A stretch of DNA of 57,299 nt from Burkholderiales bacterium (GTDB taxonomy: Bacteria; Pseudomonadota; Gammaproteobacteria; Burkholderiales; Burkholderiaceae_C). Below are positions 18,052 through 57,141 of this stretch, piece by piece. The notes beneath the pieces were generated by a model. The model saw only the letters and a list, made by a program, of their open reading frames with translations. It did not search any database and was not told where the DNA came from. Position 1 is the stretch's first letter. Every line of letters starts with the position of its first letter. Where the stretch lies: positions 1 through 57,299 of the forward strand of contig JAEKKH010000146.1 in the NCBI GenBank assembly GCA_019510465.1. The letters are read 5' to 3'. The position numbers were made by a program, and so were the translations under genes.

Positions 18052-18305
18052 TTGGGTGGCTCCTGTGCGGGATCGTCGGTCGGACGGCGCAGGCAATCGG
18101 CGCGCCTCCAGCGGCGCAGCATAAGCGCGTGCCACGGTGCTGCCGCCAGCAGGGTCAAGCGGCGGCGCAAGACGGTTCGGTGACGCCCGCACCTAGGGTT
18201 TTCGTGAGGCGGCGCCTCGCGTCTTGGCGGCCGCGTCCAGTGGACAGCCCCGCGGCGCCGACGCATACTGCGCGTTTGGTGTTCCGGCACCAGGTACAAG
18301 AAGAG

Positions 18306-18360
18306 CCGTCGCAGACCCGTCGCAGACCCGTCGCAGACCCGTCGCAGACCCGTCGCAGAC
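18306..18360. repeat. Perfect 11-bp tandem repeat, five copies
   Basis: Five identical, uninterrupted copies of CCGTCGCAGAC. They lie in the 372-bp gap between the divergent DUF2630 and diguanylate cyclase genes, ending 9 bp before the upstream candidate ATG (18370) and 63 bp before the preferred ATG (18424). The 11-bp period is close to one DNA turn, so the copies face the same side of the helix. The rest of the gap shows no gene. Confidence 0.9.
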
Positions 18361-33717: not shown

Positions 33718-34590
33718 TCATGGCGTGACTCCCTTGCTCCCGAGGCCCAGCACCCGGCGCATCCAGGCCGGGTTCCACAGCCCCTTGGGCAGGAACAGCA
33801 CGATCAGCACGAGGATCAGGCCGTTGGCCACGGCGCGGTAGTCCTTGAAGCTGCGGAGCAGCTCGGGCAGCAGCGTGACGATGATGCCGCCCAGCACGGG
33901 GCCGAACAGGCTGTTGATGCCGCCCAGGATCGTCATGGTCAGGATCTCGACCCCGCGGTCGAAGCCGTACTCCTGCGGGCCGATGAAGAAGGTGAGGTGG
34001 GCGTTGAGCGTGCCGGCCAGCCCCGCGATCGCCGCACCGAGCGCGAAGGCGAGCATCTTGTGGCCGTTGACGTCGATGCCCATCAGGCCGGCGGCGGTCT
34101 CGTCCTCCTTGATGGCCTCGAAGGCGCGGCCGATCTTCGAGCGCCGCAGCCGGGCCAGCAAGAACAGCACCGCGACGACGGTCAGCAGCACGTGCCACCA
34201 CTGCGTCAGCTGCGGGATGCCGTTCAGGCCCAGCGCGCCGCCCGTCAGGCTTTCGGCGCGGATGATGCACAGGCGAACCACCTCGCCGAAGGCCAGCGTG
34301 GCCATCGCCAGGTAGACGCCCGACAGCCGCAGCGTCGGCTTGCCGATGAGAAAGGCCACGGCCGTCGGCGCCGCCATGCCCGCCGCGATCGCCGCGGGGA
34401 AGGGCCAGCCGTGGTTCATCGTCAGGATGGACGAGGTGTACGCGCCGATGCCCATGAATGCCGCGTTGGCCATCGCCAGCATGCCGCACGACAGCGTGAG
34501 GTAGATCGACAGCGCCAGCAGCGAGGCCGTGCCCAGCGACAGCACGAGGTTGCTGTAGATGGACCAGAAGTTGTCGAAGGCTTCAAGCAT
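33718..34590 (-). CDS. livM: Branched-chain amino acid ABC permease LivM
   Basis: 290-residue permease with about nine hydrophobic helices and the LivM-type blocks ALSIYLTLSCGMLAMANAAF, LRLSGVYLAMATLAFGE and LTMTILGGINSLFGPVLGG. It forms the membrane channel with LivH. ATG 34590 was selected because the longer tracked ORF (to 34761) adds a Pro/Arg-rich stretch encoded by intergenic repeat-like DNA. It lies 186 bp behind livH. Confidence 0.94.
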   Translation of the reverse strand: MLEAFDNFWSIYSNLVLSLGTASLLALSIYLTLSCGMLAMANAAFMGIGAYTSSILTMNHGWPFPAAIAAGMAAPTAVAFLIGKPTLRLSGVYLAMATLAFGEVVRLCIIRAESLTGGALGLNGIPQLTQWWHVLLTVVAVLFLLARLRRSKIGRAFEAIKEDETAAGLMGIDVNGHKMLAFALGAAIAGLAGTLNAHLTFFIGPQEYGFDRGVEILTMTILGGINSLFGPVLGGIIVTLLPELLRSFKDYRAVANGLILVLIVLFLPKGLWNPAWMRRVLGLGSKGVTP

Positions 34591-34639
34591 GCTGTTCAAG
34601 CATATCGGGCGAGCAGGAAGGGAAGCCGGATTCCCGGGA

Positions 34640-34779
34640 AGTGAGGGTCGCACCCGAGCCGAACCGGGCTCCCCTTGGGGGGAGTGCAGGCGGCAAAGGA
34701 CTTGCGCAGCAAGGCCCCGCCGGAACGGCATCGGGCCTGCAAGGCCGATGCTTCCCGACATGAGAAGCGAGGGGGCTCA
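34640..34779. repeat. Degenerate GC-rich hairpin element after livH
   Basis: The livH-livM gap carries CCGAACCGGGCTCCCCTTGG and ends in GCGAGGGGGCTCA, whose TCA is the livH stop (minus strand). This resembles the ends of the 83-bp repeats placed on the livJ stop codon, so it looks like a diverged single relative of them. Confidence 0.4.
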
Positions 34780-35658
34780 TACCTTGCGTTCCTGGACGCT
34801 GCCGAACAAGCCCTTGGGGCGCACCAGCAGCACCAGGAACAGCAGTCCGAAGGCCACCGCGTCGCGCATGTCCGAGCCGATGTAGGCCACCGACAGCACT
34901 TCGGCGAAGCCGAGGAACAGGCCTGCGAACATGGCGCCGCGGATGTCGCCCATGCCGCCGAGGATGATGACGGCGATCCCCTTGTGCAGCATGGGCTGGC
35001 CCATCAGCGGGAACAGCGCGTTCGAGTACAGCCCGATCAGCACCCCCGAGATGCCGCCCAGGCCGGCCGCGACGAACGACGTCAGCATGAACAGGCCGTC
35101 GACGTTGATGCCCAGCAGCCGCGCGGCCTTGGGCGATTCGGCGATGGCGCGCAGCGCGCGGCCCAGCTGCGTGCGGCGCAGCGTGACCAGGAGCACCGTC
35201 ATCAGCACGAAGGACACCAGGATGATGCCCAGCTCCAGCACGGTGACACTGACGCCGGCGATGGCCAGCGACTCCTGCGGCAGCACCTCGCTGGGGAAGC
35301 GCTGGTTCTCGGCGCCGAACAGGCCCTGCACGAGGCTGTTGATGGCGATCGCCAGGCCGATGGTGGCGATCATCGGGATCAGGTGCGGGGCGTCGCGCCG
35401 GCGCAGCGGCTTGAGCACCAGGCGGTCGATCAGCAGGCCCAGCAGGCCCGAGAACGCGAAGGCGGCGACGATCGCCAGCCACAGCGGCGCATGCAGCTTC
35501 GTGATGGCGGTGAGCGCGGCATAGGCGCCGACCATGAAGACGGCGCCCTGCGACAGGTTGACGACGCCCAGCACGCCGAAGACGAGCGTGAAGCCGAGCG
35601 CGAACAGGGCATAGACGCAACCCAGCGACAAGGCATTGAACAGCTGCTGTTCGAGCAC
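34777..35658 (-). CDS. livH: Branched-chain amino acid ABC permease LivH
   Basis: 293-residue permease with eight or so helices. LivH-type blocks are present: ALSLGCVYALFALGFTLVFG, VVNLSQGAVFMVGAYAAL and GGMGDIRGAMFAGLFLG. Together with LivM it forms the translocation path for Leu/Ile/Val or related amino acids. It starts at GTG 35658. The triple 83-bp repeat lies between it and livJ. Confidence 0.94.
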   Translation of the reverse strand: MLEQQLFNALSLGCVYALFALGFTLVFGVLGVVNLSQGAVFMVGAYAALTAITKLHAPLWLAIVAAFAFSGLLGLLIDRLVLKPLRRRDAPHLIPMIATIGLAIAINSLVQGLFGAENQRFPSEVLPQESLAIAGVSVTVLELGIILVSFVLMTVLLVTLRRTQLGRALRAIAESPKAARLLGINVDGLFMLTSFVAAGLGGISGVLIGLYSNALFPLMGQPMLHKGIAVIILGGMGDIRGAMFAGLFLGFAEVLSVAYIGSDMRDAVAFGLLFLVLLVRPKGLFGSVQERKV

Positions 35659-35748
35659 GGTAAAAGCCTGGTAACGAAGAAGTGGGACCCGAAGACCGAG
35701 TCAATGCGCGGACGAGGACTCGGCCGGCCGCAGGCCCGACCGAGGGAG

Positions 35749-35990
35749 GGAGGCAACCGGCTTCGCCGGGGCCGAACCGGCCGGCCCCCTCGGGGGGCAG
35801 CGACCAGCGGGAGCGTGGGGGCTCATTTTAAGGAGGCAACCGGCTTCGCCGGGGCCGAACCGGCCGGCCCCCCGGGGGGCAGCGACCAGCGGGAGCGTGG
35901 GGGCTCATTTTAAGGAGGCAACCGGCTTTGCCGGGGCCGAACCGGCCGGCCCCCCCGGGGGGCAGCGACCAGCGGGAGCGTGGGGGCTCA
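35749..35990. repeat. 82-83-bp tandem repeat, three copies, at the livJ stop codon
   Basis: Copies start at 35749, 35832 and 35914 and are nearly identical. Differences are confined to a C run before GGGGGG and one C/T. Each carries short palindromes (CCGGCTTCGCCGG, GGCCGGCC, a CCCCC(T)CGGGGGG hairpin). The third copy ends exactly with the TCA that is the livJ stop codon on the minus strand; copies 1 and 2 end in the same GGGGGCTCA followed by TTTTAA. It fills most of the 329-bp livH-livJ gap, which has no gene. Confidence 0.9.
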
Positions 35991-37151
35991 ACGTTCGATT
36001 TCGTAGTTCTTGCCGCGGGTGGTGCTGACGATGGCCGTCTGGTTCGCGTCGTAGCCGGCCGGCTTGCCCGAGGCGTCGTTGACGCGCCGGAACACGAACG
36101 GACCGGTGGCGCCGTTCCACTTGATGGCGGGCAGCGCGGCCTGCAGGGCCTCGCGATCCTTGGCCAGGTCGCCGCTGAACTTGACCTTCTTCATCGCCTC
36201 GGCGGCGATGTGCATCGCGTCGTAGGCCTGGGCCGCGAACTGGTCGGGCGGGGCGCTGTACTTCTTCGTGTACGCGATGATGAAGCTGTTGTTGGCCGGC
36301 GTGCGGTTCTCGATGGACCACGGGCTGCCGACCCACAGGCCGTCCGAGGCGCCCTTGGCCAGGTCGAACACCTTGACCGAGTTCATGCCGTTGCCGCCGA
36401 TGAAGGGCACGTTCAGGCCCAGCTGGCGCGCCTGCACCATGATGGGCGCGCCTTCGGCGAGCAGCGCCGACAGCACGATGGCGTCCGGGTTCGTCGCCTT
36501 GATCTTGGTCAGCTGCGCCTTGAAGTCGACGTCGCCCTTGGCGAAGGTCTCGGTCGTCGTGATCGGCATCTTCTCGTCGTCGAGCGCCTTCTTGAACGCG
36601 TCGTAGCCGCTCTTGGTGAAGACGTCGTCGTTGCCGTACATCACCGCGACCTTCTTGATCTTGGCGATCTTGGCGGCGATCTTGATCGTGACCGGCAGCA
36701 CGTCGGCCTCGGTGACCGAGTTGCGAAACACGTGGTCGCCGATGGTGGTGATGCCCTCGGCGGTGTTGGACGTGCCGAAGACGACGACGTGGGCCGCCTG
36801 CGCGATCGGGTCGGAGGCCTTGGCGGAGTTCGACAGCGTCGGGCCGAACAGCATCAGGGCCTTGTCCTGGAAGATCAGCTTCTTGAAGGCGTTGATCGCC
36901 TCGTCCTTCTTGCCCTGTTCGTCCTCCACCACCAGCTCGATCGAGCGGCCGTTGATGCCACCCGCGGCGTTGATCTCGTCGGCGGCCATCTGGAACGCGT
37001 TGCGGATCGGGATGCCGTACTGGGCGGCGCCGCCGGACAGCGCTTCGGCCACGCCGATCTTGATCGGCTCGGCGGCCCCGGCCGTCCCGAGGGACAGGGC
37101 CGCGGCCAGCGCGATGGCGGAAATTCGGGTGATGCGGGTGAGGTCGTTCAC
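35988..37151 (-). CDS. livJ: Branched-chain amino acid ABC substrate-binding protein
   Basis: 387-residue periplasmic binding protein of the Leu/Ile/Val-type family. It has a signal peptide (ISAIALAAALSLGTAGAAEP, cleavage after AGA/A) followed by IKIGVAEALSGGAAQYG. The ligand-binding blocks AADEINAAGGINGR and LMLFGPTLSNSAKA are visible. It is the first gene of the liv operon and starts at GTG 37151, preceded by GGAGAC. The hairpin-rich repeat array just after it could lower transcription of the downstream permease genes relative to this abundant protein. Confidence 0.94.
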   Translation of the reverse strand: MNDLTRITRISAIALAAALSLGTAGAAEPIKIGVAEALSGGAAQYGIPIRNAFQMAADEINAAGGINGRSIELVVEDEQGKKDEAINAFKKLIFQDKALMLFGPTLSNSAKASDPIAQAAHVVVFGTSNTAEGITTIGDHVFRNSVTEADVLPVTIKIAAKIAKIKKVAVMYGNDDVFTKSGYDAFKKALDDEKMPITTTETFAKGDVDFKAQLTKIKATNPDAIVLSALLAEGAPIMVQARQLGLNVPFIGGNGMNSVKVFDLAKGASDGLWVGSPWSIENRTPANNSFIIAYTKKYSAPPDQFAAQAYDAMHIAAEAMKKVKFSGDLAKDREALQAALPAIKWNGATGPFVFRRVNDASGKPAGYDANQTAIVSTTRGKNYEIER

Positions 37152-55916: not shown

Positions 55917-56576
55917 ATGTCCGAAGATCCGCACGCCGCCGGCGCCACGCGCCGCGGCTTCCTGCAGTCCGCCGGGGCCCTGGCCGGCACGCCGCTGGTC
56001 GCCGGGCCGGTCCACGCCGCCACGCGATCCGCTTCGGAGCAGCCGCCCGCGGCCCCGGTGGCGCTGACCTTGCGCGTCAACGGCCGCGATCACGTGCTGC
56101 ACATCGAGCCGCGCACCACGCTGCTGGACGCGCTGCGCGATCACCTCGGCCTGACGGGCAGCAAGAAGGGCTGCGACCGTGGCCAATGCGGCGCCTGCAC
56201 CGTGCTGGTCGACGGGCGGCGCATCAACGCCTGCCTGTCGCTGGCGCTGCAGCATGACGGCGACGAGATCGTCACCATCGAGGGCCTCGGCGAGCCCGGC
56301 CACCTGCACCCCTTGCAGGCCGCCTTCATCGCCGAGGACGCGTTCCAGTGCGGCTACTGCACGCCGGGCCAGGTGTGCTCGGGCGTCGCGCTGATGACCG
56401 AGGCGCGCCGCGGCGACTGCAGCGCGGCCACGCCGGACGTCCGGCGCACGGGCGCCATCGCGCTGACCGACGCGGAGATCCGCGAGCGCATGAGCGGCAA
56501 CCTGTGCCGCTGCGGCGCGTACGTCAACATCGTCGACGCGGTGCGCGTCGTCGCGCGGCAGGAGGGCGTTGCATGA
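55917..56576 (+). CDS. paoA: PaoA-type (2Fe-2S) subunit of periplasmic aldehyde oxidoreductase
   Basis: 219-residue iron-sulfur subunit of a xanthine-oxidase-family molybdoenzyme. An N-terminal Tat signal (ATRRGFLQSAGALAG) directs export. The plant-ferredoxin-type cluster is bound by KGCDRGQCGACTVLV and INACL, and the second [2Fe-2S] cluster by FQCGYCTPGQVCSG and SGNLCRCGAY. Sequence and Tat signal match PaoA (YagT) of the PaoABC complex, which oxidises aromatic aldehydes in the periplasm. The FAD subunit gene follows at 57142, after an unusual 565-bp gap filled by a tandem array. Confidence 0.92.
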   Translation: MSEDPHAAGATRRGFLQSAGALAGTPLVAGPVHAATRSASEQPPAAPVALTLRVNGRDHVLHIEPRTTLLDALRDHLGLTGSKKGCDRGQCGACTVLVDGRRINACLSLALQHDGDEIVTIEGLGEPGHLHPLQAAFIAEDAFQCGYCTPGQVCSGVALMTEARRGDCSAATPDVRRTGAIALTDAEIRERMSGNLCRCGAYVNIVDAVRVVARQEGVA

Positions 56577-57141
56577 GCGCCGCCCGGCCGCCCGAAGGCG
56601 CTCGCCCGCAGCCGGCAGGCGGAGGGTCGTCCAATGAGACGTCCTGTGTCAACCCGTTCGCGGGACGAGCGCCGGGCCGCCCCAAGCCGGCCCGCGGTCC
56701 CCTCGGGGGACGGAGCGCCGTACCCGGCGCGGGAGGGGTCGTCGCGTCTGCGGGACGAGCGCCGGGCCGCCCCAAGCCGGCCCGCAGTCCCCTCGGGGGA
56801 CGGAGCGCCGTACCCGGCGCGGGAGGGGTCGTCGAGTCTGCGGGACGAGCGCCGGGCCGCCCCAAGCCGGCCCGCAGACCCCTCGGGGGACGGAGCGCCG
56901 TACCCGGCGCGGGAGGGGTCGTCCGGTTCGCGGGACGAGCGCCGGGCCGCCCCAAGCCGGCCCGTGGTCCCCTCGGGGGACGGAGCGCCGTACCCGGCGC
57001 GGGAGGGGTCGTCGAGTCTGCGGGACGAGCGCCGGGCCGCCCCAAGCCGGCCCGCAGTCCCCTCGGGGGACGGAGCGCCGTAGCCGGCGCGGGAGGGGCG
57101 CCAATGAGCGCCCGCACCGCAGGCCGAAGGGCGGTTGCCCG
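56573..57141. other. paoA-paoB gap, bracketed by imperfect direct repeats
   Basis: The gap starts and ends with similar stretches of about 36-38 bp. The left one is 56573-56608 (ATGAGCGCCGCCCGG, later CCCGAAGGCG and GCCCG). The right one is 57104-57141 (ATGAGCGCCCGCACC, later GCCGAAGGGCG and GCCCG). The left copy overlaps the paoA stop. ORFs called across the gap are open only because the 90-bp period is a multiple of three. Confidence 0.45.
56661..57110. repeat. 90-bp tandem repeat, five copies
   Basis: Units start at 56661, 56751, 56841, 56931 and 57021, each with CGGGACGAGCGCCGGGCCGC. Units contain a CGGGCCG/CGGCCCG hairpin, GTCCCC-TCG-GGGGAC and GCGCCG-TACC-CGGCGC. Differences between copies lie mainly at two places, just before CGGGAC and just after GGCCCG. 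These two places are complementary, so an outer stem (CTGCGGG/CCCGCAG or TCGCGGG/CCCGCGG) is kept in all copies. The array lies wholly between paoA and paoB. Unit 5 diverges over its last 11 bases or so, where it meets the right flank. Confidence 0.93.

Follow-up and report, generated by a model that had tools for sequence, protein, structure and literature searches.

A dispersed family of hairpin repeats placed at stop codons, with a tandem array behind livJ, in a Burkholderiales genome

The liv operon and the triple repeat behind livJ

The analysed window is a stretch of 57,299 nucleotides from a Burkholderiales bacterium, which contains genes for a livJ-type binding protein and for permeases of the livH and livM types on the minus strand, as well as the genes paoA and paoB flanking a second repeat array (Table 1). 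The livJ and livH genes are separated by a gap of 329 nt containing the triple repeat at 35749-35990 that had been described in the initial annotation, and which was recovered by TRF as 2.9 tandem copies with a period of 83 bp (98% matches, score 459). Read in the sense of livJ, each of the three copies opens with TGAGCCCCCACGCTCCCGCTGG, and the first three bases of copy 1 are identical with the livJ stop codon TGA (35988-35990), which agrees with the border proposed in the annotation. The motif TGAGCCCCC occurs four times in the window compared to 0.74 occurrences expected by shuffling, and the fourth one coincides with the livH stop codon (34777-34779). The gap between livH and livM, which had been regarded as a weaker match to the same motif, therefore does carry TGAGCCCCC at the livH stop, as the beginning of a longer mosaic variant. 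This variant resembles sequences at the loci L066/L304 (the livJ stop of a close relative) and L203, and is not found by the covariance model R1 introduced below.

Table 1. Genes and repeat elements in the analysed window
Feature	Position	Strand	Basis or remark
livM-type permease	33718..34590	-	BPD_transp_2 E = 3.2e-40
Longer mosaic variant in the livH-livM gap, begins with TGAGCCCCC at the livH stop codon	34591..34779	-	sequence, pattern matches
livH-type permease	34777..35658	-	BPD_transp_2 E = 4e-49
Family E copy 3, 77 bp, ends before a TTAAAA spacer	35749..35825	-	TRF; model match E = 7.5e-10
Family E copy 2, 82 bp	35826..35907	-	TRF; model match E = 9.5e-8
Family E copy 1, 83 bp	35908..35990	-	TRF; model match E = 8.2e-9
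livJ-type branched-chain amino acid binding protein, 387 aa	35988..37151	-	ORF; Peripla_BP_6 E = 2.7e-63
Mini-ORF through the family S array, 190 residues	56573..57145	+	ATG overlaps paoA stop (ATGA), TGA overlaps paoB start (ATGA)
Family S array between paoA and paoB, 90 bp x 4.9, ends with GGGAGGGG	56660..57098	+	TRF, own-genome copies

The RNA fold of the livJ array gave a z-score of -2.6. The livJ product ends with EIER followed by TGA in this genome and with EIEK followed by TAA, TAG or TGA in the relatives, and the livJ-livH gap of a close relative (L065) consists of only 6 nt and contains no element. Taken jointly with the RNA role discussed below, we consider the triple repeat, on balance, to have arisen by local tandem expansion from a dispersed, non-coding and REP/MITE-like intergenic repeat family, which we designate family E. 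Other repeats are present as well: in Pigmentiphaga and relatives (L119, L121, L138), the same gap contains a GC-rich, repeat-like sequence of another kind, CGCCCCCTGGGGGGCGCGCGAAGCGCGTAGGGGGGGGCATG, immediately in front of the livH start codon, and a gap between called genes at 18302-18360 of the window contains an 11-bp tandem repeat (AGACCCGTCGC, 5.4 copies, 97% matches).

Structure, spread and placement of family E

A nucleotide search of the organism's own genome (a draft assembly of 5.28 Mb on 516 contigs) with the livJ array yielded 43 matches. The covariance model R1 found at least 127 matches at E<=1, and 111 copies were mapped in 81 arrays. The copies are nearly all intergenic, and the element is about 80-145 bp long. 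An alignment of 24 copies contains a C5-G5 hairpin and a second helix, consisting of four variable pairs followed by CCGGC, a loop and GCCGG, with 97.6% of the helix cells being paired. At the variable pairs, we counted 24 two-sided changes compared to 6.7 in shuffles, and the covariation score was 0.207 compared to 0.044; these shuffle counts do not represent probabilities because the aligned copies are related. The signal was lost upon sliding the partners by 1-3 columns. The hairpin of family E is thus conserved and supported by compensatory changes. An outer stem GCTCGC/GCGAGC predicted from single folds was discarded, as it is not conserved among the copies. Many full-length copies run on into a conserved tail, CGCTCCCTTGAACTT...GAGCGGCAGCGCCGG, which the livJ copies do not contain.

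Using R1 with stricter filters, we found 74, 50, 11 and 20 copies in four genomes of the same genus and up to 17 matches in other genera of the same family, while none were present in 16 genomes from other families. At E<=1e-5, 15 of 161 genomes of the family contained matches, among them a genome of another genus (G119) with at least 29. In Variovorax genomes, a related-looking element was recognised by eye at the livJ stop (L132, L140, L141, L143). The Rfam search produced no match at the gathering score in the window and only sub-threshold matches at chance level near the array, and no description of family E was present in the open-access literature searched. The best reading is that E represents a new REP/MITE-like family.

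To analyse the positions of the arrays, the genes were called by a dicodon model trained on the same genome, and one duplicate contig end was removed, leaving 80 arrays. Their upstream neighbour was the 3' end of a sense gene in 69 cases and the 5' end of an antisense gene in nine, while two arrays had no callable gene. The first CCCC was located between -2 and +7 nt from the sense stop codon in 60 of the 69 arrays. Taking the model's own start as the start of the element, this applied to 42 of 69, and 50 of 69 were within 15 nt; the discrepancy arises mainly from a subfamily carrying an additional C5-G4 module, in which the model match begins late. Judged by the first CCCC, 58 of 75 arrays abutted a sense stop compared to 7.5 expected if elements are placed uniformly and randomly oriented within the same gaps (maximum of 18 in 100,000 simulations). 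None of the 81 arrays was of mixed orientation. Regarding their contexts, 53 arrays were in sense orientation between co-directional genes and 14 in sense orientation between convergent genes, whereas only six and two were antisense in convergent and co-directional contexts, respectively. The 5' end of the element (GCCCCCAC) is accordingly located at the 3' boundaries of genes in mRNA sense, usually 0-7 nt after the stop. The annotation had suggested that hairpin elements of one family may be placed at stop codons within operons, and had proposed a genome-wide scoring of the copies against stop codons; the placement indeed turned out not to be random, co-directional genes flank 53 of the 75 arrays, and a congener and other genera show the same pattern. 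Among copies from three further genomes (G003, G138, G118), 16 of 20 were found at -2 to +15 nt of a sense stop, compared to 9 of 20 in G119, where many others are elsewhere in intergenic DNA.

The stop codons at the elements comprise 49 TGA and 11 TAG, a usage similar to that of the genome (215 TGA, 33 TAG, 7 TAA). Of 30 internal array copies, 21 have a stop triplet at the 5' border, compared to 11% for random 12-mers, many of these copies being tandem duplicates and not independent. Strict targeting of TGA was rejected as a full explanation in view of the TAG borders (11 of 60), several borders without any stop triplet, and the non-stop borders in G119. A stop-like border of E is common, not obligatory. 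At two loci (L176, L180), an antisense element is located 3 nt before a start codon and presents GGGGGCTCCATG on the strand of the gene; its G-run could serve as a ribosome-binding site.

We compared the C-termini of the upstream gene products with those of three congeners by a hand count of 90 orthologue pairs. The same end residue was found in 68 pairs and the remainder differed by 1-5, and the congener contained no element in 77 of the 90 (by a strict pattern; a few more carry one by eye). Because of the identical end residues and the empty sites, the genes are generally not truncated, and E was added at, or lost from, an existing boundary. An element was present in at least one orthologue at 11 of 32 loci, and the copies at shared sites are more alike than random pairs (0.74 vs. 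0.61), indicating that part of them derives from shared descent. E is dispensable at these loci, being absent from most of the orthologues. At L178, L281, L394 and L419, the reading frame enters E and stops at a TAG inside. The idea that the element recreates stop codons therefore holds for this minority, whereas the ancestral stop position was mostly kept. In one further case (L053 on contig C216), the ORF reads through E, and the upstream protein would thereby be extended by about 40 C-terminal residues.

The annotation had further proposed a partial terminator after livJ, which would explain an excess of binding protein. As a terminator or attenuator, E would leave excess message for the binding protein, and its strong hairpins resemble the GC-rich hairpins of intrinsic (Rho-independent) terminators after genes. 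A hairpin with a T-run is indeed present between livJ and livH in 31 of 59 relatives (L065-L144). In the genome studied here, however, none of the E hairpins between livJ and livH is followed by a T-run and no terminator-like site was found in 34500-36100; CTTGAACTT follows in the tail of full-length copies instead of a T-run, and the 53 copies between co-directional genes place most of the family inside apparent operons, which also distinguishes it from intrinsic terminators. The terminator reading therefore fits the relatives and not this genome, and we regard it as improbable for family E. A partial terminator after the binding-protein gene appears to be common in the order and is absent here.

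Family S between paoA and paoB

The annotation had connected the array between paoA and paoB with the livJ repeat by a common motif. Only the C4-N-G5 hairpin core is common to both, R1 gives no match at the pao array, and the latter is anchored at start codons. We therefore dismissed the array as a member of family E and treat it as a separate family S. The mini-ORF through the array is built of five 30-aa repeats and has no Pfam match. Searching the own genome with the 90-bp unit yielded 30 matches, and at about a dozen loci the GGGAGGGG end precedes the start codon of a co-directional gene by a Shine-Dalgarno distance, the intervening bases commonly being CGCCA or CTCCA. At 10 of 15 S loci, including that of the window, an ORF extends from at or near the upstream stop to an NTGA overlapping the downstream start; these ten are not fully independent because of their one common ancestor and the 90-bp in-frame period. 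Where congeners lack S, two of the junctions are ATGA overlaps of the -4 type, and the majority of the others, not all, are tight. Outside the window, the ribosome-binding-site-like GGGAGGGG was observed just before the starts at L310-L313, L331-L335, L341 and L349, along with a mini-ORF that overlaps the genes on either side. From these arrangements, we interpret S as a betaproteobacterial case of the MIRU-like architecture. Another short unit, ATGAGCGCCGCCCGGCCGCCCGAAGGCGCTCGC...GGAGGGTCGTCCAATGA, is located ahead of the S array at 56573-56637 and recurs behind S at L330, and it may represent a third cassette of this kind.

Given the neighbouring family S with such an architecture, and given its own sense orientation, operon position, stop-codon border and tandem copies, E could likewise be assumed to be a MIRU-like coding cassette, coupling the translation of its neighbours by an internal ORF. 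An ORF that connects the upstream stop with the downstream start is present at only 6 of 53 co-directional E loci, which argues against E working in this way. Moreover, the livJ units of 83 and 82 bp do not keep the frame and the distance from E to the downstream start codon varies widely, making this reading very improbable.

Possible roles of family E and comparison with known systems

Because most copies begin only a few bases from a stop codon, E probably alters the translation or the message lifetime of its neighbours. The explanation we favour, with some reserve, is a REP/MITE-like repeat working as a post-stop RNA element that affects translation and/or mRNA decay, and in the best reading E is a structured spacer that is either tolerated or selected for directly behind stop codons. 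Insertions after stops would survive because the coding sequence remains unbroken, and sometimes because the border or interior of E offers a stop. A stable, GC-rich hairpin cluster would then follow translation termination, and such a post-stop structure of the REP or RTS kind may hinder the re-initiation of ribosomes on the next cistron and/or the 3' decay of the upstream message. The REP between malE and malF is known to favour the upstream gene and to separate the translation of the downstream one from it. In the liv operon, E may similarly separate the translation of livH from that of livJ and favour livJ, with transcription not being ended.

The copy number, the covarying hairpin, the anchoring, the orientation bias, the empty orthologous sites and the occasionally supplied stops speak for the post-stop RNA element, together with the recurrence in other genomes, the fold of the livJ array, the lack of a terminator-like site there and the published parallels given below. 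The anchoring would also arise if selection simply removes insertions elsewhere, and about half of the copies of G119 are away from stop codons, both counting against it, as do the many orthologous loci that manage without E and the failure to identify a mobilising enzyme. The main rival is a purely selfish element which moves either randomly or to sites behind short TGA-like motifs and does not usefully influence expression, its post-stop position reflecting only purifying selection against insertions in coding sequences and 5' control regions. Such behaviour would be consistent with the lineage-restricted bursts in the four congeners (74, 50, 11 and 20 copies), with most orthologous sites being empty, with the stop triplets at the borders of internal array copies, and with the intergenic non-stop sites in G119. 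However, landing after any intergenic TGA predicts 25.2 of 60 elements at stops, whereas 49 were seen, and the 53 sense copies between co-directional genes far exceed the nine antisense copies at gene starts, an excess which selection on start regions could cause in part. We rank a post-stop role in translation insulation or 3' protection as most likely, the selfish alternative being possible and rather less probable.

More tentatively, the two Sphaerotilaceae repeat families on opposite sides of cistron boundaries might together represent a mobile system rewiring the translational coupling of operons, which we consider possible, if rather doubtful. If so, E would use stop codons as a landing or survival site and sometimes bring its own stop together with a post-stop RNA structure, while S would land on tight or ATGA-overlapping junctions of coupled genes, leave NTGA at both ends and link the two genes again by means of a mini-ORF and a Shine-Dalgarno sequence of its own. 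Stop-tied repeats would represent ready-made translational insulators appearing inside operons. The congeners would offer dozens of natural pairs with and without the element, so that the same genes can be compared for re-initiation, polarity and 3' mRNA stability.

A mobilising enzyme for E was not identified: in 12 genomes analysed for a RAYT association, Y1_Tnp was present in 11 regardless of the E copy number, and the contigs of the two Y1_Tnp genes of this draft (C66 and C386) contained no R1 matches. In other respects, E resembles REP and BIME elements in being high-copy, short, palindromic and intergenic. It shares with the REPs of E. coli the many dispersed, GC-rich and hairpin-forming copies near gene 3' ends and the tandem clusters, but it is longer (about 80-145 bp) and far more tightly anchored (0-7 nt), and unlike in BIMEs, the copies within an array do not alternate in orientation. 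An earlier study quoted in PMC12306157 assigned 260 of 496 REPs to translational regulation on the basis of a location within 15 nt of a stop codon, at which REPs are reported to stall ribosomes. Stable structures just after stop codons lower re-initiation, and the ribosome termination structure (RTS; Chemla et al. 2020) was reported to be depleted inside operons (PMC7518266). E is likewise predicted to form a stable mRNA structure immediately downstream of the stop codon. It differs in being one repeat family that is common between co-directional genes, whereas RTS do not belong to one sequence family, and the depletion of RTS in operons would count against the explanation favoured here. The MIRU elements of mycobacteria are dispersed, same-sense repeats inside operons, which occur in tandem copies and are tied to stop/start codons (PMC12548453). 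E is similarly dispersed, same-sense, operon-internal, tandem and tied to stop codons, but lacks a coupled ORF at 47 of the 53 loci that could be tested. The likeness extends further in S, which also possesses the internal ORF with -4 overlaps; by this likeness in architecture, S would extend the mycobacterial strategy to another phylum.
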